20,429 bases of DNA, taken from IMG/VR virus record IMGVR_UViG_3300008448_000856, positions 1 through 20,429 of that record; one strand, given 5' to 3'. Position 1 is the stretch's first letter. The number at the start of each line of letters is the position of its first letter. A model generated the notes under the pieces. That model was given only the letters and a program-made list of their open reading frames with translations, ran no database searches and was not told where the DNA came from. Positions 1,458-18,691 of the stretch are shown piece by piece. The translations under genes were made by a program, and so were the position numbers. Source of the DNA: a virus.

Positions 1458-1488
1458 AAGATCAGTTTGATAAAGGTGCTTTGATCTT
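1458..1488. terminator. Weak hairpin in the convergent gap between the fibre-like gene and thyA
   Basis: AAGATCA (1458-1464) and TGATCTT (1482-1488) form a perfect 7-bp stem around a 17-base loop. It spans the 8-base gap between the two convergent genes and the last codons of the thymidylate synthase gene, where a bidirectional terminator would be expected. There is no clear U-tract on either side and the stem is AT-rich, so the call is weak. Confidence 0.25.
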
Positions 1489-2610
1489 AGGATGTGACTC
1501 ATATCCGATTAGTTCAAAACAATCTGGTCTATAACTCATGATCTTTTGATCAAATGTCTTTTCGCCTAAATGTTCTTTAACAGCTTCATGCATATACCAA
1601 TTCCTTTCAGTTATTTGAATCTTAGGTAGTTCATAAGGTGTTCTACTAAGTTGTTCTTTAGCTTGTTCAATATGATTATTATATAAATGTACGTCACCTA
1701 AATTGCCAATCAAATCTTCAGGCATCATGTTTACTTCCTTAGCAATAATCTCGAGTAGTAAACCGTATGATGCTATGTTAAATGGTAAGCCAAGGAAAGT
1801 ATCTACTGAGCGTTGATTCCACATTAAAGAGATTGCTCTAGTTGGTATATCAGCATCATCCATCATATTTAATGCATTTATTTTACCGTAAGCATTCCCT
1901 CCTTCTTCTTCCCAAGTTTTATCGCTTTTGAAATATAAATTATATCTTTCATCAAAAGTCAACTTTCTAGTATATACTTGAAACCCATAATGGCAAGGTG
2001 GAAGCACCATCTTTTCTAAGTCTTCTACATTCCAAGCGCTAACCATCAATCGCCTTGAATCAGGGTTTGTTTTAAGTTCGTTGATTAGATTTTGAATTTG
2101 ATCTATACCTTTAATATGATTTTTTTCAAACTTCAAATAGCCATTCTCATCTTTTTCATCAGTTAGCTTTACTTCATCTCTACCATTCCAATCTCTCCAC
2201 TGCTTACCGTAAATTGGACCTAATTCACCCCACTTATGAGCAAACTCATCATCGGTTTTGATTTTATTGATGAACTCTTCTTTTGTATATTTTTGAGGAA
2301 GTTCGGCGTTTATCAAAGAATCATACCATTTACAATAGTTTTTATAGGCATCACCATCCCAAATGTGACAATCATAATCCAATAGAAATTTAATATTAGT
2401 ATCGCCTCTTAAGAACCATAACAATTCAGTTACCATAGTTTTCCATGCCATTTTCTTTGTAGTCAGCAATGGAAATCCGTCCTTCATATTGTGTCTAATC
2501 TGCCAACCAAAGATTGATTTAGTACCTGTTCCTGTACGGTCTGCTTTATCTATTCCAAAATTCAGAATATGATATGATAGTTCTTTATATTGGCGATCTA
2601 TGTTGTTCAT
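1462..2610 (-). CDS. thyA: Thymidylate synthase (ThyA type, extended)
   Basis: This enzyme methylates dUMP to dTMP with methylene-tetrahydrofolate. The full ThyA set of motifs is present: Arg186-Arg187 for phosphate binding, the nucleophile Cys206 in LPPCHYGFQ, RSVD ending in Asp270, LGLPFNIASY with Asn278 (the dUMP-selecting residue), and His308/Tyr310 in GDVHLYNNH. The C-terminus ends KAPLSN, two residues past the usual 'AP-x' end that closes over the substrate. At 382 residues it is about 120 longer than the E. coli enzyme. The extra length lies mainly at ~95-170 and in an insert at ~217-258, between the nucleophile strand and SLMWNQRSVD. Its ATG overlaps the stop of the upstream gene as ATGA. 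It contrasts with the second, gp42-like member of the superfamily in this window. Confidence 0.95.
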   Translation of the reverse strand: MNNIDRQYKELSYHILNFGIDKADRTGTGTKSIFGWQIRHNMKDGFPLLTTKKMAWKTMVTELLWFLRGDTNIKFLLDYDCHIWDGDAYKNYCKWYDSLINAELPQKYTKEEFINKIKTDDEFAHKWGELGPIYGKQWRDWNGRDEVKLTDEKDENGYLKFEKNHIKGIDQIQNLINELKTNPDSRRLMVSAWNVEDLEKMVLPPCHYGFQVYTRKLTFDERYNLYFKSDKTWEEEGGNAYGKINALNMMDDADIPTRAISLMWNQRSVDTFLGLPFNIASYGLLLEIIAKEVNMMPEDLIGNLGDVHLYNNHIEQAKEQLSRTPYELPKIQITERNWYMHEAVKEHLGEKTFDQKIMSYRPDCFELIGYESHPKIKAPLSN

Positions 2611-4557: not shown

Positions 4558-5016
4558 TTAGAGTTTAAATAAAGCCGCATCCTTTTTTGTATGTAGTACA
4601 TGTCTAGGTTGACCAGACTTTGTAAGACCTATAGTATAAGCCTTATTCTTTATAGAGGGTAGTATTTCGTCTACTCTTTTCTTGTCAACATTATTTCCCC
4701 AGATGCATAGTATCTTACTACAAACATTTTTCATGTTCTCTATCCAAGTATCATTCTCAGAACCTACTGGATCAACTATACTCTTAAGATCTTTCGGATT
4801 AGGACTTATGTAACCGTATAAATTGGTAATGACTAGGCTATCAAAACCTTCTCTTAGTGCTATATTCATCAATATAGAAACTGTGCTATTCTTACCGTTC
4901 TTAATTATAGACGGGTTCAATCCCACAACTCCCATTGGTTTATATGCAGTACCAGAATCAAATATACTAAGATACTGATACTTTTGGCATTGGCTTACGA
5001 TTTTCAAGATGTTCAC
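4558..5016 (-). CDS. DUF1643 family protein
   Basis: The 152-aa protein matches the DUF1643 pattern along its length: VVGLNPSI near residue 30, a VITNLYGYISPNPKDL segment near 71, DPVGSEND near 92, ILCIWGNN near 107, and LGLTKSGQPRHVLHTKK near the C-terminus. The biochemical role of the family is not established. It is common in phages and mobile regions. The frame opens at GTG 5016, overlapping the upstream gene by 50 bases; there is no in-frame ATG until after the first conserved block. An alternative TTG at 5007, preceded by GAAAGG, would shorten it by three residues. Its presence near DNA-base-metabolism genes is suggestive only. Confidence 0.8.
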   Translation of the reverse strand: MNILKIVSQCQKYQYLSIFDSGTAYKPMGVVGLNPSIIKNGKNSTVSILMNIALREGFDSLVITNLYGYISPNPKDLKSIVDPVGSENDTWIENMKNVCSKILCIWGNNVDKKRVDEILPSIKNKAYTIGLTKSGQPRHVLHTKKDAALFKL

Positions 5017-5684: not shown

Positions 5685-6335
5685 CTATTTATTAAACATA
5701 TTATAATGCCTAGGATAAACATGCAGGTTAGTAATGAACCAATGCATCTGGCCTACAGGATATTTTGTCTTACGAGATACGTGTTCCATAAGCTTAGCAA
5801 ATGTGTACTGGTCATTACAGAAGCCAAACACAAGATCGATAGATCTAGCAAACACAGTCATGTGTAACTTATCATCTTTGATATAGAAGTTAAGTACATC
5901 ATTACAAGGAGTGTCATACTTGTATCTGTCTATCTCGTGCAGTATGTAATGTACAACAATAGCACGACGTGTTTCTTTATTTCTTTTTAGTTCATCAATA
6001 ACTTTTACAAGCTGATTGTTGTAATTCCAGAAGTAGCCATAGTTAGAGTTTACTTCTGTAGTACCTGGTACCATCATTTGTTTCCATATCTTAGCACGTT
6101 CAGCTATCTCTGACGCATCACGATTGCCGTTTTGATACCAATGCCATTCGTACTCAGCATAGTCTTGATTAAACTTACGGACTGGTGTTTTAATAACTTT
6201 TTGCGTAGGATCTTCAATAGTAAAAGATTGATTGAATATAGCTTTGGTATTAGCAAAGTCTTCACCTTTATCAATGATATAGTGAAACATATTCTCAAAT
6301 GCACTAGTAGGCGTTGTATATTTTCTATTCTCCAT
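5685..6335 (-). CDS. T4 gp42-like deoxypyrimidine (dCMP or dUMP) hydroxymethylase, thymidylate synthase superfamily
   Basis: This 216-aa enzyme has the superfamily core: Glu63 in EWHWYQNGN, NSNYG near 96-100, ETRRAIV with Arg123-Arg124, nucleophile Cys144 in TPCND, RSID ending Asp167, and His205/Tyr207 in NLHVYPRHY. It resembles T4 gp42 more than ThyA: the segment VFGFCND parallels gp42 VFGFRND, and LHVYPRHY parallels LHVYSRHF. Counting from Asp167, the residue at the ThyA Asn (dUMP-selecting) position is Asp175, as in T4 where Asp179 selects dCMP. Such enzymes add a hydroxymethyl group from methylene-tetrahydrofolate and water. The C-terminus is short by about 30 residues relative to gp42. 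It overlaps the dCMP deaminase gene by 11 bases. The substrate (dCMP versus dUMP) is unproven, and a divergent thymidylate synthase is not excluded. Confidence 0.75.
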   Translation of the reverse strand: MENRKYTTPTSAFENMFHYIIDKGEDFANTKAIFNQSFTIEDPTQKVIKTPVRKFNQDYAEYEWHWYQNGNRDASEIAERAKIWKQMMVPGTTEVNSNYGYFWNYNNQLVKVIDELKRNKETRRAIVVHYILHEIDRYKYDTPCNDVLNFYIKDDKLHMTVFARSIDLVFGFCNDQYTFAKLMEHVSRKTKYPVGQMHWFITNLHVYPRHYNMFNK

Positions 6336-6726
6336 ATTGTTCTACTTGTATAAATTGATTAAGAAAGTCAATACCTTCAGAGTTACGATATTTAGTCAAA
6401 TATACAACTCTTTTTATTCCTGATTGCAAAATAACTTTAGAGCAGTCTAGACAAGGACTAAGTGTTAAGTATAAAGTAGAACCATCTACAGAGTTGCCAG
6501 TCTTGGCAGCTTTTAGGACGGCATTCACTTCAGCGTGGATAACATGGTTTAAAGTGATACCATTTTCTTCACAGTGGTTATCCATTCCAGACGGAGTACC
6601 ATTATAACCAAAAGAAATAATATTACCATCACGAACTAAAACTGCGCCGACTTTTGATCGAACGCAGTGTGACAGAGTAGAGGTTTCTTTTGCTATGTTT
6701 ATAAATACTGTGTCTAGTTTATTCAT
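6325..6726 (-). CDS. dCMP deaminase
   Basis: The enzyme deaminates dCMP to dUMP, feeding thymidylate synthase or a hydroxymethylase. The zinc site is clear: His-Ala-Glu in HAEVNA, where Glu is the proton shuttle, and Cys-x-x-Cys in LSPCLDCS. An additional Cys/His-containing loop (NHCEENG) fits the ComEB/dCMP deaminase group. I start at ATG 6726, giving MNKLDTVF and 133 residues. The longer frame uses GTG 6759 and would run back through the dUTPase coding end. The ATG lies one base after the dUTPase stop, and the 3' end overlaps the hydroxymethylase start, so all three are coupled. Confidence 0.9.
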   Translation of the reverse strand: MNKLDTVFINIAKETSTLSHCVRSKVGAVLVRDGNIISFGYNGTPSGMDNHCEENGITLNHVIHAEVNAVLKAAKTGNSVDGSTLYLTLSPCLDCSKVILQSGIKRVVYLTKYRNSEGIDFLNQFIQVEQYGE

Positions 6727-6727
6727 A

Positions 6728-7156
6728 TTACAATCCTGTTGAACCAAAGCCTCCAGCACCTCTTTCTGTGTTTCTAGATTGAATCTCTTCTACTTCTTCT
6801 ACATCAAAGTATGCTACTGGAATTAGAACAAATTGAACTAGCTTCTGTCCTGTTGCAATTACCTGATCTTTATCTGATGTATTGATCATATGAAGATGCA
6901 CCTCGCCCTCGTAGTCTTCGTCCACGACGCATGCACCAACAGATAGTCCTTGCTTAACAGCAACTCCTGATTTGTTAAATGCAATCAATGCATAACCTCT
7001 AGGAACCTGTACTCTGATGCCAGATGGAATTAATACAGATTGGCCTGGTTTTAATGATGCTGTTTCAAAGTCTTCTGGGACATAGAAGTCAATACCTGCT
7101 GAAGCAGCTGTACCTCTATTTGGTGTTTTTACGTTTCGTAACTTTTGTATTTTCAT
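6728..7156 (-). CDS. dut: dUTP diphosphatase (trimeric dUTPase)
   Basis: The enzyme splits dUTP to dUMP and diphosphate, keeping uracil out of DNA and supplying dUMP. All five trimeric dUTPase motifs are present: AGIDFYVPE (motif 1), FNKSGVAVKQG (2), GACVVDEDYEGEVH (3), GQKLVQFVLIP (4) and the glycine-rich RGAGGFGSTG (5) at the C-terminus. Motif 2 has NKSG in place of the usual PRSG, a tolerated variation. The ATG at 7156 is preferred over 7165 because it lowers the overlap with the MazG-like gene and leads directly into the conserved KIQKLRNVKTP start. A modified-pyrimidine phage would use it to prevent dUTP incorporation. Confidence 0.93.
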   Translation of the reverse strand: MKIQKLRNVKTPNRGTAASAGIDFYVPEDFETASLKPGQSVLIPSGIRVQVPRGYALIAFNKSGVAVKQGLSVGACVVDEDYEGEVHLHMINTSDKDQVIATGQKLVQFVLIPVAYFDVEEVEEIQSRNTERGAGGFGSTGL

Positions 7157-7418
7157 TTTGAGCATTTTGATAATCGTTTAGTGAAGCAATATACGCAACA
7201 CAATCTAATAAATTGTCTTCTTTGTGGTTATAAGCCTGTCTTGATAACTTGAGAGCAATCATTGCATTGTACATATCGACTGCGGTTAATTCTTTACGAC
7301 TTAATAACGATGCAATCTTGGCAGCTTCCTGCATACCTTCTTGCATTGGCCCATATTGACGAGCCTTTTCCTCAGATCTCTTGTAGATGATCTCGTTTGC
7401 TTGTTCTAGTATATTCAT
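7116..7418 (-). CDS. MazG-like DUF6378 family protein
   Basis: The 100-aa protein follows the phage DUF6378 pattern: an N-terminal helix (ILEQANEIIYKR), the YGPMQEGMQEAAKIA segment with Tyr-Gly, LTAVDMYNAMIALKLSR, and KEDNLLDCVAYIA. These all-alpha proteins resemble MazG/all-alpha NTP pyrophosphatases, which hydrolyse nucleoside triphosphates; the Glu/Asp residues in EEGM-like and DNLLD positions would bind metal. The C-terminal tail is basic (TKVTKRKNTK). An ATATTTAT copy lies 3 bases before the ATG, and it follows a 36-base gap after the PLP enzyme gene, so transcription may start here. A dNTP house-cleaning or pool-shaping role beside dUTPase is inferred. Confidence 0.7.
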   Translation of the reverse strand: MNILEQANEIIYKRSEEKARQYGPMQEGMQEAAKIASLLSRKELTAVDMYNAMIALKLSRQAYNHKEDNLLDCVAYIASLNDYQNAQNENTKVTKRKNTK

Positions 7419-7454: not shown

Positions 7455-8342
7455 CTATTCTCCTAAGTACTTGATAATGTCTAATTTGTCACCCCACTCT
7501 CTTTGAGAGTTAACATCACTTGGCTTTATTGTAGGCTTTGGCATATTTCTAGCAACATTCCAGAACCAATTTCCAGAGTGGCCATAACGTTTCATATAGT
7601 CCCAACCTTTTGCGTCATAAGTTTTGATACAATCAAATGGAGTATCAATGTCACAATCTTTAAGGAACTCTTTATGGTACGCATAGAATTTAGCCCTGCC
7701 TAATTCACCTGATTGCACATTTCTTGCAACTGCTACAGCATTAAACTTAGTATTCGGGAGTGCAATCTGAAGTGTTCTGGACAATACACCGGTTGAGAAT
7801 ACTGACCACAACTCGTCTATATTTTTATCTTTGAAAGCTTCATGGAATATCTTAACTCCACCTGCCACTACTTGTTCGTGCTTAAGACCAAATGGTAGAT
7901 ACTTTGCACCAATCTTTTGTGCAAACTCTTTTGCCCAACCATTTATAGTTGGCATAGCAGGAGTCTTTAAGAAGATAGGCGTAGCACCATCTTCAATAAC
8001 CCGTAGTTGATGTTCAGAAGCTTCTTTAGATGCTGGCATAAATAGGACTAGCTTCTTGTTATACTTCTTTGCAAGATACGTAAGAGAGTATGGAGCATAA
8101 CCTGTTCTTGGTGCAACATAAACTAAAGTGTCTTCTTTTACTTGACTAATCATGAAGTCTCCCATCTTGGCTTTACTACCATACTGGAACTCTCCATCAT
8201 CAATCACATTGTAGCCATCGATTTGTTTTATCGAGAAGTCAAAATCAGGCTTATAGTCTTTAGTCATTTCTAGATAGTAGTTTAAGTCTCTACCATCCGA
8301 CATGTCTAAGTTTGATTGATCTGTTGCTTTGTTTATAAACAT
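7455..8342 (-). CDS. Fold-type II PLP-dependent enzyme-like protein, candidate base-modification enzyme
   Basis: The 295-aa protein has the general plan of tryptophan-synthase-beta/ACC-deaminase-like PLP enzymes. YGSKAKMGDF puts Lys57 at the PLP-lysine position, as in the family's GNK. VYVAPRTGYAPYSL (74-87) is followed by a Rossmann-like KLVLFMPASKEASEHQLRV, and FSTGVLSRTLQIALP (182-196) stands where the glycine-rich phosphate loop lies. The usual Ser/Asn-Gly-Asn loop and Gly-rich GSGGT loop are both altered, so substrate and chemistry may differ. It lies 2 bases after an aGPT-PPlase-like gene. PLP enzymes accompany that family in phage base-hypermodification clusters, where they rework amino-acid adducts. 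A role in decarboxylating or altering a base adduct is inferred; ordinary amino-acid metabolism is the alternative. Confidence 0.7.
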   Translation of the reverse strand: MFINKATDQSNLDMSDGRDLNYYLEMTKDYKPDFDFSIKQIDGYNVIDDGEFQYGSKAKMGDFMISQVKEDTLVYVAPRTGYAPYSLTYLAKKYNKKLVLFMPASKEASEHQLRVIEDGATPIFLKTPAMPTINGWAKEFAQKIGAKYLPFGLKHEQVVAGGVKIFHEAFKDKNIDELWSVFSTGVLSRTLQIALPNTKFNAVAVARNVQSGELGRAKFYAYHKEFLKDCDIDTPFDCIKTYDAKGWDYMKRYGHSGNWFWNVARNMPKPTIKPSDVNSQREWGDKLDIIKYLGE

Positions 8343-8344
8343 AA

Positions 8345-9388
8345 CTACTTTAATTTACGAGCGAAGTCATAATACTTATCATGGCCCCACGTTTGTTTAA
8401 GAATTGTATTGTTATTCATTCTACGACCGTTGTTTTTAATTACATGTTGGTCTGATTGATACTCTTGGAAATAACGAACTACGTCACAAGCTCTACTATC
8501 TTCACAATCAATTGGGTTCAAGTTATATCTGTTAGACAAGAATTGTAATACTTCATTGATGTACTCGAACTCTTTTACTCTAGGGCTAACTTTAGGAAAG
8601 ATAGCATTAATACAACGAACTGCATTTGTTCCTGCGTATACCCAACCTTTAGGGTTTACCATGTTAGGGAAATATTCACCTAAGTCTGCTGCAAATGCAG
8701 TCAATACAAAGTTTTGCTTCTTGAATCCTAAGTTATTAAGGTACTCGTTACCTAAGTCTGTAACTTGGTAGATGTCGTATCTCTTACTTTTAACTGCATC
8801 GTAAATGTGTCTAACTAATCCTTCTGAGTACTCTAGAATAAACTTTCTCAAGTGACCTCTAGTCTCATTCTCAAATGTGAACTGAGGAAGTAAGTAGCCT
8901 TTATTATCTGTAAAAGGTGTGATGCGGTTATAAAGGTCCTGCTTCCATTCTGGCCATGTGTAATGTTCTTTTAATATAGAATCTACAATCCAGAAGTTAC
9001 CGAAACCATGCGTACCCAGGATGTCCTTGATATGGTCCTTCTTATATCTTGGTACATAATTAATACCAGAACCACAAAGCCTAAATAAATAGAAGAGCAT
9101 GAACCAATCAAAGTCGTCTTTAATATCATGATTTGTAAAGTGATGGCCCATTCCTCTTATGTCTTCTTCTTTATACCATACTGCTTCAGTAAATGCACAG
9201 AATGCAGCAAACCTACGATGCGCAGTATCATAAATAGGTACATGATAGATTAGATCATCATTTACGTCTTTATACAAATCGCCTTCATAAGGAAGTCCTA
9301 GGCTACCATGTTGTTGCATTAATAGACTACGCCTATCATATTCGTCTAGTGCTTCAAGTAGCTTTTCGTTGATAATAAATTTTTGCAT
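8345..9388 (-). CDS. Putative DNA-base hypermodification protein of the aGPT-PPlase / amino-acid:DNA transferase family
   Basis: I place this 347-aa protein in the alpha-glutamyl/putrescinyl thymine pyrophosphorylase group, which has a DNA-glycosylase-like helical fold. The evidence is the order of signature segments: an N-terminal RRFAAFCAFTEAVW; LFYLFRLCGSGINY (98-111); THGFGN (126-131); FVLTAFAADLGEYFP (227-241); VYAGTNAVRCINAIF (250-264); and CEDSRACDVVRYFQEY (295-310), matching the family's D/E-x-S-x-x-C-[DE]-x-x-[KR]-Y end. Known members displace diphosphate from a pyrophosphorylated 5-hydroxymethyluracil in phage DNA and join an amino acid or polyamine to the base. The assignment is from remembered patterns without a search. 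The gene is separated from its two neighbours by 1 and 2 bases, forming a single unit with the SGNH-like and PLP-like genes. Confidence 0.6.
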   Translation of the reverse strand: MQKFIINEKLLEALDEYDRRSLLMQQHGSLGLPYEGDLYKDVNDDLIYHVPIYDTAHRRFAAFCAFTEAVWYKEEDIRGMGHHFTNHDIKDDFDWFMLFYLFRLCGSGINYVPRYKKDHIKDILGTHGFGNFWIVDSILKEHYTWPEWKQDLYNRITPFTDNKGYLLPQFTFENETRGHLRKFILEYSEGLVRHIYDAVKSKRYDIYQVTDLGNEYLNNLGFKKQNFVLTAFAADLGEYFPNMVNPKGWVYAGTNAVRCINAIFPKVSPRVKEFEYINEVLQFLSNRYNLNPIDCEDSRACDVVRYFQEYQSDQHVIKNNGRRMNNNTILKQTWGHDKYYDFARKLK

Positions 9389-9389
9389 A

Positions 9390-10322
9390 TTATTTTACAA
9401 ATTGATTTGCGAACATGTAGTATTTAGGCTTCAAGTGTACTGATTGTTTAGGCTCCATGTACTCAAACATCTTTGTACCATCTTCATCAACCCACTCATC
9501 TGGCCATTGGATAGTTTTAAGTCCTGAATTATTCATTATCCTATTTGCAACGTCTCTTAATTCAGATCTCTCTTGTCTTGTTCCAAAAAATGGTTGTTTG
9601 AGATATAAACCTGTACCAGGTAATTTACGACTTTCGTGCTCAACCGGTAACAAATTAACTAGAGTAACGTTATTTAATTTCTTAGCAAACTCAATATATC
9701 TTCTAAATAGATCTCCTGTTGCGGCTCTTGGATTTTCTTGCCTCATTAAATGGAAGCGTAAATCAATATTGCCAAAGTATAAAACTACTTCATCATACTG
9801 TTCGTTCCACGTATCAACAAGAGTGTCTGCGTCTTTTAAGAAGCCAAACAGGGTTTTACCGTCTGTTCTATCAAGACCAAAACCAGGCTTCCATACACTA
9901 AGTGAATGAGAATCACCTCTTACTAACTTCCTTGTAGTGTTTCCATGTAGTCTAGCAAAGTCTAGACAATTAATTGCGGCAAATTGATGATCTACACCAA
10001 ATCTTTTATTAAAGATGTTAAGATCAATAGGAACATTAACTGCAATAGCTAGACCTTTGTAATTAGCCATAGCTTCTATCTTAGCTCTATGTTCAGGCTG
10101 TGGTCCTCCAATAAAGTTAAATATGTTCTCTTGATAGTTAACTCCTTCTAAGATATAGAGTCTTTCATACTCATTCCATGTTGAAGGATCGGGATTAATG
10201 TCTAGATCTCCTAATGTGTGTTCTGCTTTTAGTATGTTCATCATAACGTGATAATAGCCTCCACCATGATGGCTTTGGCTACTACCTACATTATTGAGCA
10301 TACCTACTACGGCTGCTTTCAT
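9390..10322 (-). CDS. SGNH/GDSL-hydrolase-like protein with an unassigned N-terminal domain
   Basis: The 310-aa protein contains VRGDSHSLSVWKPGFG (residues 134-149). GDSHS resembles the GDSL block I with Ser138 as nucleophile, and YFGNIDLRFH (182-191) resembles block III. SVHLKPKYY (295-302) could supply the catalytic His296, but the usual Asp three residues before it is Gln293. The first ~130 residues form a separate part beginning KAAVVGMLNNVGSSQSHHGG and ending near FNKRFGVDHQF, which I cannot place. SGNH enzymes are esterases or acyltransferases acting on acetylated or acylated substrates. It is first in the three-gene unit with the aGPT-PPlase-like and PLP-like genes, so an acyl transfer or hydrolysis step on a base adduct is possible. 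The ATG has an AAGTTATG context. Confidence 0.6.
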   Translation of the reverse strand: MKAAVVGMLNNVGSSQSHHGGGYYHVMMNILKAEHTLGDLDINPDPSTWNEYERLYILEGVNYQENIFNFIGGPQPEHRAKIEAMANYKGLAIAVNVPIDLNIFNKRFGVDHQFAAINCLDFARLHGNTTRKLVRGDSHSLSVWKPGFGLDRTDGKTLFGFLKDADTLVDTWNEQYDEVVLYFGNIDLRFHLMRQENPRAATGDLFRRYIEFAKKLNNVTLVNLLPVEHESRKLPGTGLYLKQPFFGTRQERSELRDVANRIMNNSGLKTIQWPDEWVDEDGTKMFEYMEPKQSVHLKPKYYMFANQFVK

Positions 10323-10342: not shown

Positions 10343-11965
10343 TTACATTCCCATAGTCATGTCCATCATAGGATCTGACTTGTCATTTTTATCTTTCTTT
10401 TCGAATACAACAGATTCAGTTGTTAAAATAGTTCCTGCTACTGATGTTGCATTCTTAAGTGCTGTGATAACAACTTTAGCTGGATCGATAATGCCTGATT
10501 CAAATGCATCTACTACTTTGTGATTCTTTGCATCATATACTTGTCCATCACCAGGAATATTCTCGAACCAATTCTCAATACCTGCATTAGACAAGATCTT
10601 TTTGAATGGCGCTTGTAAAGCATTACGAACAATATCTCTAGCGATTGCTACATTACTGCTGGTTTCTGCTCTATGATTAAGTGCTACTCTATAAAGTGTC
10701 GCACCGCCACCTGGAACAATACCATCAGCTAATGCTGCTTTTGTTGCGTACAAAGCATCTTCTACACGATCTTTCTTTTCTCTAATCTCGATATCACTAT
10801 TACCACCTACAGAAATAATTGCAACACCACCAATCAACTTACCAAGCCTTTCTTGCAACTTCTCTTTCTCATAGAATGAACTTGATTTATCAATCTGGTC
10901 TTTGATTTCGTTTGCTCTAGCTTCAATCCTATCTTCATCTCCTTTACCGTCAATGATAGTAGTCTCTTCTTTAGATACAGTAACAAGCCTTGTTGAACCA
11001 AGATACTGTGCTAGTTGCTGAGTTGTAAGTTTATCAAGCTTTAAACCTTTATCTTTAGAGATAACTTGGCCACCAGTCAAGATAGCAATATCTTCTAAGA
11101 TCAATGTTTTACGTTCACCAAAGTCTGGTGCTTTAACGGCACAAACTTGAACAATACCACGCATCTTGTTTACAATGAGTGTAGCAAGAGCTTCATCTCC
11201 AATATCTTCAGCAACAATCAACAAAGGCCTATTTTCAGAATTGGCTTTAGTCAATACTTGAAGTAGCTCTTGAGCTGTTGAAATACGACCATCATAAAGT
11301 AGGATGTATGGATTATCAAGTACAGATTGCATTGTAGTGTTGTTAGTCACAAAATAAGGTGATTTGTAACCACGATCAAACTGCATACCTTCAACAATCT
11401 CTAATGTAGTTTCGCCAGTCTTAGACTCTTCAATAGTTACTACACCTTCACGACCTACTTTATCAAGTGCTTCAGCAATTAAGTTACCAACTTCAGGATC
11501 ATTATTACCTGAGATAGTTGCAACTTGTTTGATTTGCTCTTCTGAAGAGATTTCTGTTGCTAACTCTTTGATATCTTTTACTACTTCATTAATGATATTA
11601 TCAATCTCATTCTTAATCTCAACAGCGTTAACTCCTTGACGAATCTCTTTAAGACCTTGCTTAATCATTTCAGTAGCAAGTAGTGTCGATGTAGTTGTAC
11701 CATCACCAGCTTCATTTGCAGACTTAATACTAACTTGTTTAACAAGTTGTGCACCAAGATCTTCAATGTCATCTTCAAGCTTGTGAAATGCTTTAGCAAC
11801 TGTTACGCCATCTTTTGTAACTTTAACTTCACCATTTTGCTCACGAATCAAAACAGTACGTCCACCAGGACCTAATGTTGACGAAACAGATTGGTTTAAC
11901 TTTTCTATACCTGACAGTAGCTTTTCTTTAAGCTCTGTTCCAAAAACGTTTTTAGTTGTACTCAT
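10343..11965 (-). CDS. groEL: Chaperonin GroEL, phage-encoded
   Basis: This is a complete 540-residue group I chaperonin that forms a double ring and folds proteins with ATP. It has [10 protein letters not shown] (29-38) at the nucleotide pocket, [18 protein letters not shown] (83-100) including the GDGTT ATP-binding motif, and [15 protein letters not shown] near 410. The C-terminus MMDMTMGM recalls the Met/Gly tail of bacterial GroEL. The sequence is diverged from typical cellular GroEL at the N-terminus ([18 protein letters not shown]) and shows the phage's AT-rich composition, so it is a long-standing phage gene rather than a recent host capture. It lies 8 bases after GroES and upstream of the SGNH-like gene. 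It may help fold virion or replication proteins. Confidence 0.96.
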
Positions 11966-11973
11966 AGTTTATT

Positions 11974-12264
11974 TTATTCAATTACTGCAAATATGTCTGA
12001 TTCTTTACAAATATAGTAGTCTTCACCTTCGATAACGATTCGCTGCGAACCTAATTTAGGGATCAAAACGACTTCTCCTTCTTCTAAGGTTGAGATAACT
12101 AGCTTGTCTGTGTGGTAGTTGTATACGTGTGAAGTAGCTACTACAATTCCCATTTCCGGTCTTTCTTTACCTAGATCAGGAATGATAATATTACCAAACG
12201 TCTCCTCTTCTGATTCTACTGGCCTGAGTACTACATAGCCATTTAGTGGGGTTATTTTTTTCAT
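11974..12264 (-). CDS. groES: Co-chaperonin GroES, phage-encoded
   Basis: The 96-aa protein caps the GroEL chamber. It starts LNGYVVLRPVESEE, the beta-barrel opening of GroES, and its mobile loop is ETFGNIIIPDLGKE (residues 21-34), with the IIIP hydrophobic contact for GroEL. The roof region and C-terminal GEDYYICKESDIFAVI follow the family. Length is typical of bacterial GroES (about 95 residues), unlike the longer T4 gp31. It is immediately upstream of GroEL and preceded by a 64-aa gene at 4 bases, so the three are translationally linked. Confidence 0.94.
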   Translation of the reverse strand: MKKITPLNGYVVLRPVESEEETFGNIIIPDLGKERPEMGIVVATSHVYNYHTDKLVISTLEEGEVVLIPKLGSQRIVIEGEDYYICKESDIFAVIE

Positions 12265-12268
12265 AATA

Positions 12269-12463
12269 CTAATTTACAATTTCTAATTCATTTATTTTAA
12301 TACAAAAATAGAGTAAGCCATCTTTTTTAAAGATTGCGTCTACTCCAAACCAAAGTTTGAGTACTTCTAAATCTTTATCTTGCATCCACTCTTCTTTTAA
12401 TGTACGCTTGATTTGAAATAGATCTCCATTAATGTTGATGATATTCTTACAAAGTGAAAACAT
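12269..12463 (-). CDS. Small hypothetical protein in the chaperone cassette
   Basis: The 64-aa protein has a short, possibly beta-rich body with WFGVDAIFKKDGLLYFC near residues 38-54 and KINELEIVN at the end. The start context is CCTAAGTTATG. Similar short proteins with a 'W...D.IF...G.LYFC' pattern appear in other phages, without known function. Its position between Hsp20 and GroES, 4 bases before GroES, suggests co-expression. It could be a chaperone-linked factor or simply a phage small protein inserted in the operon. Confidence 0.6.
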   Translation of the reverse strand: MFSLCKNIININGDLFQIKRTLKEEWMQDKDLEVLKLWFGVDAIFKKDGLLYFCIKINELEIVN

Positions 12464-12486
12464 AACTTAGGTAGGTAGGCCTATTT

Positions 12487-12951
12487 TTATTTTATAACTA
12501 TTTGTTTTGGCTTTTTAGATTCTGCATAAGGAATATCTAAAACAAGAAGTCCTTTATCGAGTTTAGCTTCTAGTTTAGATAGATCAAATTTAACTGAGAT
12601 TTTCCAGCTCAAGTCAAATCCTGACCTTTTAATTCCACGATAAATTGCAGTTTCTTGATTAAGCGGCTTTACTTTTTCATACTTGATACGAAGTTGATCT
12701 CCATCTACTAAGATTTCGATGTCTTCTTTGTCTAGGCCTACTGCGGCGACTTCAAATGAAATGCCGTCTTCTGTTTCGTAAATGTCTACTGGATGTGATA
12801 TTTTCTGCGTAATAGCAGAGAAGTGTGGTGTTGATTCGAAGAGGTCTTTCCAGAGCAAGTCAAATGGATCGAGCTCAAATGGTCTTAATGTTCCCATAAT
12901 GTTTGTTTTTGTGTTCCCTTCCGGTGAACGGTTTATAAATGTTTGTTTCAT
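12487..12951 (-). CDS. Small heat-shock protein, Hsp20 / alpha-crystallin family
   Basis: The 154-aa protein has an alpha-crystallin domain from about residue 52: HPVDIYETEDGISFEVAAVG, then LDKEDIEILVDGDQLRIKYE, and FDLSKLEAKLDKGLLVLDIP, the A-x-x-x-x-G-[VL]-L signature. The C-terminal KQIVIK provides the IxI-type motif (IVI) used for oligomer assembly. Small heat-shock proteins hold unfolded proteins for refolding by chaperonins. The start at 12951 has the TTTAGTTATG context; an alternative ATG at 12897 would remove 18 residues. It is the first gene in the chaperone run, and a GATATTTAT copy lies 27 bases upstream, so transcription of the whole cassette may begin there. Small Hsps are also known from T4-like marine phages. 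Confidence 0.9.
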   Translation of the reverse strand: MKQTFINRSPEGNTKTNIMGTLRPFELDPFDLLWKDLFESTPHFSAITQKISHPVDIYETEDGISFEVAAVGLDKEDIEILVDGDQLRIKYEKVKPLNQETAIYRGIKRSGFDLSWKISVKFDLSKLEAKLDKGLLVLDIPYAESKKPKQIVIK

Positions 12952-16668: not shown

Positions 16669-16854
16669 CTAATCCTCCGACTCTTTTTCTTTTATCTTCG
16701 CAGTACCTTTTGTCCACTCTGGATCATATGGACAGTGTCTGCATTTATTACCACAACAATGCCCTCTTTCTAAATGGAAAAGAGCGGTAAAAACCACTCT
16801 CCCATTTTCTAAATAGAAATGAACTCCTTCTATGAAATCTTTATATAATTTCAC
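16669..16854 (-). CDS. DUF5522 family cysteine-rich protein
   Basis: The 61-aa protein has the core GHCCGNKCRHCPYDP (residues ~32-46) preceded by VHFYLENGRVVFTALFHLERG, matching DUF5522, a small family best known from Bacteroidetes. The Cys4 array (CC...C..C) and His suggest a metal-binding, probably zinc or iron-sulfur, site. I choose GTG 16854 because a perfect AGGAGG lies 5 bases upstream; an alternative GTG is at 16860. The gene begins inside the last codons of the ribonucleotide reductase. The tight overlap implies coordinated expression, and a metal or redox helper for the reductase is an attractive but unproven idea. Confidence 0.82.
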   Translation of the reverse strand: MKLYKDFIEGVHFYLENGRVVFTALFHLERGHCCGNKCRHCPYDPEWTKGTAKIKEKESED

Positions 16855-18691
16855 AAGCACCTCCTGCGCAGGCTAGTTCACCTTTTTGATCAGTATTATC
16901 ATCGACTTCTATTACTTTAGATAGATCTACTTCGTGAAGCTTACCAACAATCTCGTTAAATCTTTCTTCAGTGATAGTTTCAAAAGGAGCTTGAACATAT
17001 GAGCCGTTGTCATAAGGCAGACAAGACAATGCTGTATAGTTATTCCTATTTGCCCATGCCCATTCACCAACTTCTGGCCATTCTTCTGGTTTAAGAGAGA
17101 TAGTTACAGATACATTGTGAGTATTACGTCCTGTTCTATGTCCTGGCTTAATCCACTCTTTGTGTAGTTTTTCAAGTCTATGAAGCAAATCAACTGCTGA
17201 CTCAGATCTTGTGATCGCTCCTTCAGGTGCTTTTTGTGGAACAGACACTACAGCTTGTGATTGTGGCTTGAAGTATTCGTCTTCTACCAACTCAGGATGA
17301 TAAATAGAAAGATAGGTATAAAGAGCTTCGTTCTTACCAAGTCTCATTCTACGAATGTAGAAATTATCATGCCAAGCATGTACTCCTGATGATGTACCAA
17401 GAACCATTGATGTTGTTCCTGAAGGTTTAACTGTTGTGCATCTAGCTGCTTTATTAATACCAAGAACTTTTGCTACTCTTTCGTTCTCTTCTTTTACTAT
17501 TTGAGCTGCTTCTTTCATGTTTAATTTCAATACTGCACCGGAAGCAATGCCTGTCATACCAATACCAATCAACGCATCTTTTTCTGTTGTTCTTTTCCAA
17601 ACATCACGAAGATAGTGGAAGTCAGTATATGAGGCTTGAAGTGTACCAATAAAGGCAGCAGCTTTAACTCTTTCATTTAGATCTTCTTGAGACTCAAGAT
17701 TAGATACGTTAACTTCGCACAAGTTACAGAATTGAAATGGTCTAAGTGCAATCTCAGCACAAGGATTAGTTCCCCAATCTTTGTCATTAGTCAAGAAGAA
17801 GCCAGGTTCACCAGCATTAGATAGTTCGATCTTTTTCCAAAGATCCATAAACTCTTCTTTCTGAATACGATCACGAAGTATAGTCGCTGAGTTATTAGCA
17901 CGTCCTCTTTGAGGATTTTGTTCCCACCAATTACCAAACTTAGAGGTTAACATCTCTTCGTCATTAAAAGAGAATAGACTAATCAAAGCAGCTCGACGAA
18001 TACCTCCAGACAATACTGCATCAGCAATATAACAAATAATATCATGACACTCGATTGGCTTTAATTTATCTCCTGTCTCTTTACGATCAAGAATCTTTTG
18101 TATCTGGAATAAACACTCCTTCAAAGGTTCTGGACCAGGTGCTTTACCTCCTGCAGTGATTAATGTTGAACCTTTTGGTCTAACATCACGAAAGTCAAAT
18201 TTAGGTCTAGGGCCACCTACAAGATAAGACTTCATCAATATTTTAATTGCATCAGCCCAACCTTCAATAGAGTCTCCAACTAAGAAACGCTTTTCTTTGA
18301 TTGGCTTAATGATCTCAGGAAGTTGATCTACATGATGGTGCTGTACTGAATATCCTACACCACATCCTCCTAAAAGAAGGAACATTACTTCTGAAAATAC
18401 ACGCCAGTCATCAACAGGAGCAAAAGAACAGTTAAATATACGAGCATTATTAATTTCAATGGGCTTGCCTGCAAACTGCATTGAACGCATTGAAGGAAGA
18501 ATTTTTTTATCATATACGAGTTTATAAACGTCTTCGATTTCATTAAATAAAGAAGGAAACTTTTGTTGGTGCATTTCCTTATTTCTTGTAACTATTTCAT
18601 TCCAGGTTTCACGCCTTTTAAATTCTGGTAAATACTTTGCGTATTTGTTGTAAACCGTAATCTCAGATAAGATTTGTTGCGTGATGTCCAT
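16841..18691 (-). CDS. nrdJ: Adenosylcobalamin-dependent (class II) ribonucleotide reductase, monomeric type
   Basis: This 616-aa enzyme reduces ribonucleotides to deoxyribonucleotides using a B12-derived radical and needs no oxygen. The sequence follows the Lactobacillus-type class II form: LPSMRSMQFAG (65-75), RIFNCSF with Cys88, GGCGVGYSVQ (108-117), NPCAEIALRPFQFC with Asn309, radical Cys311, Glu313 and Cys322, and VKPSGTTSMVLGTSSG (421-436). The C-terminal CAGGAC gives Cys608 and Cys613, the relay pair that receives electrons from thioredoxin. It is about 120 residues shorter than the L. leichmannii enzyme. No small NrdB subunit gene is present, as expected. The upstream leader at 18692-18814 is AT-rich, and the end overlaps the DUF5522 gene. 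It supplies dNTPs for phage DNA from a host with cobalamin. Confidence 0.95.
   Translation of the reverse strand: MDITQQILSEITVYNKYAKYLPEFKRRETWNEIVTRNKEMHQQKFPSLFNEIEDVYKLVYDKKILPSMRSMQFAGKPIEINNARIFNCSFAPVDDWRVFSEVMFLLLGGCGVGYSVQHHHVDQLPEIIKPIKEKRFLVGDSIEGWADAIKILMKSYLVGGPRPKFDFRDVRPKGSTLITAGGKAPGPEPLKECLFQIQKILDRKETGDKLKPIECHDIICYIADAVLSGGIRRAALISLFSFNDEEMLTSKFGNWWEQNPQRGRANNSATILRDRIQKEEFMDLWKKIELSNAGEPGFFLTNDKDWGTNPCAEIALRPFQFCNLCEVNVSNLESQEDLNERVKAAAFIGTLQASYTDFHYLRDVWKRTTEKDALIGIGMTGIASGAVLKLNMKEAAQIVKEENERVAKVLGINKAARCTTVKPSGTTSMVLGTSSGVHAWHDNFYIRRMRLGKNEALYTYLSIYHPELVEDEYFKPQSQAVVSVPQKAPEGAITRSESAVDLLHRLEKLHKEWIKPGHRTGRNTHNVSVTISLKPEEWPEVGEWAWANRNNYTALSCLPYDNGSYVQAPFETITEERFNEIVGKLHEVDLSKVIEVDDNTDQKGELACAGGACEII
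16860..16865 (-). promoter_or_regulatory. Shine-Dalgarno AGGAGG embedded in the reductase C-terminus
   Basis: AGGAGG on the minus strand is a full match to the anti-Shine-Dalgarno complement and sits 5 bases before GTG 16854. These bases also encode the Gly-Gly of the reductase CAGGAC motif. Strong Shine-Dalgarno sequences are otherwise rare in the window. Confidence 0.6.

Follow-up and report, generated by a model that had tools for sequence, protein, structure and literature searches.

The uncultured viral record IMGVR_UViG_3300008448_000856, analyzed here over its full 20,429 bases (the window), encodes a compact gene set that we consider reasonably likely to be a phage DNA-hypermodification cassette for 5-hydroxymethylcytosine (hmC), in which a helical protein and an SGNH-fold protein would add a group to the base and a PALP-type enzyme would tailor it. 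Its core consists of three open reading frames (ORFs) on the minus strand, each with an ATG start: the SGNH-fold protein (310 aa, 9390-10322), a middle protein, MID (347 aa, 8345-9388), and a PALP-type pyridoxal phosphate (PLP) enzyme (295 aa, 7455-8342), separated by intergenic gaps of 1 and 2 bases. An earlier note on this DNA had described these genes as a three-gene unit proposed to hypermodify bases starting from 5-hydroxymethyluracil (hmU); the genes, the gaps and the MID segments that it quoted are all present, and the unit is as tight as described. It is wider than three genes, however, comprising at least four, among them a thymidylate synthase (TS) paralogue, TS2 (5685-6335, minus strand; PF00303, 9e-23), that had been missed. 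Pairwise comparisons with relatives gave ratios of nonsynonymous to synonymous substitution (dN/dS) of ~0.04-0.15 for each gene, showing that the genes are real and under strong purifying selection.

TS2 keeps the catalytic Cys, within a PC motif. At the position of ThyA Asn177 in the alignment it carries an Asp (FGFCND in the window), as does the T4 dCMP hydroxymethylase gp42 (FGFRND), where this residue serves cytosine recognition. The Asp is present in 95 of the 95 TS2 family members in which the region is readable and likewise in the gene 42 products of Aeromonas phages 44RR and 25, whereas Asn occupies the site in ThyA and in the TS-family proteins of five phages with ADDT/HMUDK_hel proteins (M6, SH-Ab 15599, nACB2, Pam3, and RHph). 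The window also holds an ordinary ThyA of the dTMP synthase type (1462-2610, minus strand; PF00303, 1e-89), with Asn at the base-recognition site of the alignment, so that TS2 is dispensable for dTMP. From its sequence, TS2 is predicted to be a dCMP hydroxymethylase of the T4 gp42 type, and because it carries the dCMP-type Asp rather than the Asn of dUMP hydroxymethylases, the starting base is most likely hmC and not hmU.

An activating kinase of the kind that accompanies hmU modification, which the earlier note did not see in the window, was also missing from a wider sample: HMUDK (PF18748) was found in none of eight large relatives, although these contigs may be incomplete. HMUDK_hel (PF18723, formerly aGPT-Pplase1) and ADDT (PF18724, formerly aGPT-Pplase2) were likewise not found in the large relatives tested, with Pseudomonas phage M6 as a positive control for each. 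Searches by phmmer with M6 gp51-gp55 returned nothing in a 162-kb and a 183-kb relative, and the same search with T4 gp42 found TS2. One large relative encodes a zeta-toxin-like P-loop protein.

The PLP enzyme connects the set to a known hypermodification cluster. It matches phrog_7093 (E 2e-28), which also includes M6 gp52, and its profile aligns with phage PALP proteins (hhalign 99.9%, E 4e-36) with the candidate PLP lysine, Lys57, in register; BLASTP of the protein against M6 gp52 alone was weak, and profiles were required. In M6, gp52 adjoins the ADDT gene (gp51) with a gap of 1 base, and the other neighbors encode a radical SAM protein (gp53), the HMUDK kinase (gp54), HMUDK_hel (gp55), and a TS-family protein (gp58). 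Presumably, gp52 acts on the DNA-linked amino acid. The profile homology to gp52 and the position of gp52 next to the M6 ADDT gene bear out the earlier view of a PLP enzyme linked to hypermodification. Microcystis phage Mae-JY30 and Erythrobacter phage R6L have related PALP proteins too, encoded next to ParB/methyltransferase genes or as part of them.

The motifs RLxGSxINY, HGxGNF, GTNA, and EDxRxCD are present in 72-73 of the 74 distinct members of the MID family. In comparisons with BFVD, a structure model of MID (predicted local distance difference test, pLDDT, 87.9) matched a viral protein annotated as ADDT (E 1e-11, TM 0.78), the HMUDK_hel protein of PhiW-14 (prob 0.99) and a Pplase1 protein (0.98), with a weak match to endonuclease III. 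Sequence searches placed MID in no family of Pfam, NCBIfam, or PHROGs. Scores above 26.2 bits for ADDT were reached neither by MID nor by 27 family members or 25 divergent members, and scores above 25 bits for HMUDK_hel were not reached either, the best match being that of one of the 27 MID members (E 0.031). Nothing significant was obtained with hhalign against the ADDT alignment, and nothing at all against PDB sequence profiles; no match was found when MID and the two helical relatives described below were compared by tblastn with 50,697 phage records, and no relative of MID was found in a scan of bacterial genomes. The solved ADDT structures 8z2m (a glycinyltransferase), 8z2n, and 25qc are absent from the PDB fold matches of the MID model at E <= 10. 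Of the aGPT-PPlase-like character assigned to MID before, the helical fold is supported by BFVD, while assignment to the Pfam families ADDT or HMUDK_hel is not supported. Judging by its model, MID belongs to the broad aGPT/HMUDK fold group and to neither Pfam family, and we propose that it is a DNA-base-binding transferase.

The SGNH protein consists of a Rossmann-like N-terminal region and an SGNH domain. When its AlphaFold2 model (pLDDT 90.8) was compared with the PDB by Foldseek, SGNH/GDSL esterases took the top ranks (prob 1.00, E 2e-4), confirming the fold that had been suspected, and the matches include carbohydrate (sugar O-acyl) esterases and the acetyltransferase PatB. By sequence, the protein matches phrog_13881/17781, and PDB sequence profiles gave only irrelevant glycine-receptor matches. 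Alignment A3 shows no variation at Ser138 (GDSHS), Asn185 (GNID), and His296, and catalytic patterns of the GDSHS/GNID type occur in most of 111 SGNH ORFs, fragments included. The Asp of the DxxH motif is not present, its place being taken by an invariant Gln293 in the same alignment; the invariant Glu290 could replace it. An acyl-transfer step by this protein, as the earlier note had it, is possible.

This small conserved gene set is present in hundreds of uncultured viral sequences. A scan of IMG/VR identified 68 loci encoding MID, at 49-100% identity. Around MID, on class-1 viral contigs with enough flanking sequence, SGNH is found in 37 of 38, the PLP gene in 39 of 39 and TS2 in 39 of 39. 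In the locus L062 one ORF encodes both SGNH and MID, and TS2 directly follows the PLP gene both there and in L063. In a second class, found with the PLP alignment, SGNH and PLP share a neighborhood and MID lies between them in none of 21 contigs; these loci have groEL upstream and DUF6378, dUTPase or a related gene, dCMP deaminase, and TS2 downstream. One class-2 contig of 174 kb encodes, far from SGNH/PLP, a distant homolog of MID, MID2 (389 aa; hhalign E 1e-76), and on this profile evidence the homology of the two is beyond doubt. In 79 of 80 loci, the gene after MID2 encodes another helical protein, X2; single profile comparisons gave P 2e-4 for X2 against MID2 and P 4e-4 for X2 against MID. 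In L280, L277, and L294 the genes for MID2, X2, SGNH, and PLP form one contiguous group whose order varies; in the first two contigs, whose neighbors are T4-like as judged by eye, TS2 and a cytidine-deaminase-like ORF precede this group. On the 183-kb contig L039, the genes are split between two places, SGNH and X2 occupying 111-113 kb and MID and PLP 40-42 kb. The persistence of the set through these changes of order argues for one function.

Additional ORFs are found at the edges of these cassettes. In L001 (11041-11743) and similar class-1 loci, ~700 bases lie between MID and PLP, compared with 2 in the window, perhaps encoding a homing endonuclease. An HhH-GPD glycosylase-like ORF adjoins MID2 in 49 of 80 loci (e.g., L212:2455-3300 and L249:5929-6705), and an ORF of ~185 aa, perhaps an endonuclease, does so in 36 of 80. 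A small protein is encoded directly before MID2 in L280 and L294, and that of L280 belongs to the uracil-DNA glycosylase (UDG) superfamily (1.8e-6); base-glycosylase-like proteins thus recur around these cassettes.

Relatives of the SGNH protein are also found in 43 phage records, chiefly those of T4-like phages of Aeromonas. The homologs of Aeromonas phages 44RR2.8t, 31, and 25 show 32% and 27% identity. ORF233c of 44RR2.8t encodes a fusion protein of 795 aa, with SGNH followed by an HMUDK_hel-like C-terminal region (E 0.0036; 4e-4 in a genome search). SGNH stands alone in phage 25, preceded by genes for UDP-galactopyranose mutase (GLF, 5e-54) and possibly a glycosyltransferase (L323:1677-3858), an arrangement that suggests a galactofuranose-type modification in this phage. 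The two genes upstream of the phage 25 SGNH gene were considered as helical partners and rejected, one of them being the UDP-galactopyranose mutase. According to a review, gene 42, denB, and alc occur in phages 44RR, 31, and 25 whereas glucosyltransferases do not, and it leaves undecided whether phages that have gene 42 and lack glucosyltransferases modify hmC otherwise (PMC2993671); no later account of DNA modification in these three phages was found in the literature searched. In Tenacibaculum phage PTm1, an SGNH relative (L324:7781-8800) lies between ribonucleotide reductase genes.

Taken together, we favor hypermodification of hmC because of the conserved set, the fusions, the homology to M6 gp52, the dCMP-type Asp and the folds of MID and SGNH, and because 44RR, 31, and 25 carry gene 42 without a glucosyltransferase (PMC2993671). 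In such a pathway, going by its signature residues, TS2 would make 5-hydroxymethyl-dCMP, to be incorporated into phage DNA, where MID, joined by X2 in some lineages, would recognize and bind hmC. MID together with SGNH would then put a substituent on the 5-hydroxymethyl group; the fusions in L062 and ORF233c show that SGNH is coupled to helical proteins. The PALP-type enzyme would subsequently tailor this substituent, for which an amino acid or an amine is the simplest candidate by analogy with the M6 homolog, and the product would make the DNA resistant to restriction, to CRISPR, or to glycosylases directed at hmC. We give limited credence to a kinase-free variant, in which SGNH, joined to the aGPT-like protein, would esterify the 5-hydroxymethyl group of hmC in DNA by acyl or aminoacyl transfer, with the PLP enzyme then processing the attached amino acid to give an unreported base.

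Several points weigh against the hmC pathway as a whole. Each catalytic step, the order of the steps, the final base, and the role of SGNH are what we infer, and the dCMP assignment of TS2 rests on one discriminating residue together with overall similarity. MID fails to match Pfam and its model has no significant match among PDB folds; its sequence links it to HMUDK_hel at only P 0.012, in one hhalign comparison that is collinear over the full length. Searches of the 162- and 183-kb relatives by phmmer with T4 gp1, gp56, and beta-glucosyltransferase returned nothing, so that cytosine may not be fully replaced. Among cultured phages, no PALP homolog was found in the Aeromonas phages with SGNH, PTm1 has SGNH and a second TS without the Asp signature, and in phage 25 the position of SGNH beside UDP-galactopyranose mutase may mean that SGNH acts on sugars.

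An hmU pathway as in M6, ViI, and PhiW-14, with a kinase encoded elsewhere activating the base, MID transferring an amino acid, and PALP and SGNH finishing the product, would account for the homology of PALP to M6 gp52, for the resemblance of MID to the HMUDK_hel/ADDT folds and for the 1-base ADDT-PALP spacing in M6, which is similar to that in the window; the neighboring dUTPase and dCMP deaminase genes would also favor a supply of dUMP. We nevertheless find it unlikely, as the dCMP-type Asp is present in 95/95 TS2 members with the region, and PF18748 was not found in eight large relatives, nor PF18723/PF18724 in those tested, where the M6 control was positive. A sugar-modified hmC, with SGNH acylating or deacylating the sugar, or with its Rossmann-like N-terminus serving as the sugar transferase, and MID and PALP adding groups, appears quite unlikely. 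SGNH enzymes commonly work on acylated sugars, in keeping with the sugar O-acyl esterases and PatB among the PDB matches, and the phage 25 gene adjoins UDP-galactopyranose mutase (GLF, 5e-54) and a possible glycosyltransferase; against this, neither the unit of the window nor the compact cassettes L280, L277, and L294 include sugar genes, and PLP and helical partners do not point to sugar chemistry.

That SGNH, MID, and PALP act on free nucleotides or cofactors as part of pool metabolism, rather than on DNA, would suit a neighborhood of ThyA, dUTPase, dCMP deaminase, and ribonucleotide reductase, but the fold relatives of MID are DNA-acting families and PALP homologs adjoin DNA methyltransferase/ParB genes in R6L and Mae-JY30, which makes this very unlikely. 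Hardly credible, finally, is the idea that the helical proteins work as genuine glycosylases, excising bases from the DNA of the host or of rivals, with SGNH and PALP carried along as passengers that have no part in it: the glycosylase-like fold, the weak EndoIII match, and the HhH-GPD or UDG-family ORFs that often adjoin the divergent MID2 class are in line with it, yet the set is strictly conserved and SGNH is found in fusions, which speaks against passengers. The earlier note was right in what it observed, partly right in its general idea, and probably wrong in the base.

The genes around the cassette in the window, all on the minus strand, include nucleotide-pool functions. Between TS2 and the PLP gene, and in the same run, lie a dCMP deaminase (6325-6759; PF00383, 1e-25; phrog_174), a dUTPase (6728-7165; PF00692, 8e-25), and a DUF6378 protein (7116-7418; PF19905, 2e-12), the latter a conserved neighbor with similar ORFs in class-2 loci. 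A DUF1643 protein is encoded near TS2 (4558-5016). The window ThyA, of 382 aa, has ~100 residues beyond the Pfam profile (266 positions), spread over several insertions. Upstream of SGNH, a run of predicted chaperones (10343-12951) comprises GroEL-like (540 aa), GroES-like (96 aa), and small heat-shock-like (154 aa) proteins, and a chaperone run likewise precedes SGNH in class-2 contigs. A ribonucleotide-reductase-like protein of 616 aa with a CAGGACEII tail is encoded at 16841-18691.

The set is widespread in uncultured phages and probably a variant of the known systems that hypermodify DNA. It shares with the M6 cluster (gp51-gp58) a PALP protein of the same family, aGPT-like helical proteins, a TS paralogue, and tight spacing; it differs in that M6 has ADDT (PF18724), HMUDK (PF18748), HMUDK_hel (PF18723), and radical SAM proteins, none of which was found in the relatives tested, and in that the M6 hydroxymethylase is of the dUMP type, whereas here a dCMP-type enzyme and an SGNH protein are present. 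With the T4 hmC system of gp42 and glycosyltransferases it has in common a hydroxymethylase with the same Asp signature; unlike T4, homologs of glucosyltransferase, gp1, and gp56 were not detected by phmmer in two large relatives, and helical, SGNH, and PLP proteins are present instead. Aeromonas phages 44RR2.8t, 31, and 25 are alike in their SGNH homolog, with the HMUDK_hel-like fusion in 44RR, in gene 42, and in the lack of glucosyltransferases, and differ in having no PALP homolog and, in phage 25, a UDP-galactopyranose mutase beside SGNH.

The amino-acid-type hypermodifications known to date are mainly on hmU, and the known modifications of hmC are mainly sugars. The cassette probably decorates the cytosines of phage DNA with a chemical group, and if the kinase-free esterification were true, the base would be of an unreported kind. 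For the cultured phages 44RR, 31, and 25, the SGNH gene is a concrete candidate for the cover of hmC, which can be tested on phages available from collections. A set that combines a dCMP-type hydroxymethylase with aGPT-like, PLP, and SGNH proteins would unite amino-acid-type modification with the modification of hmC.

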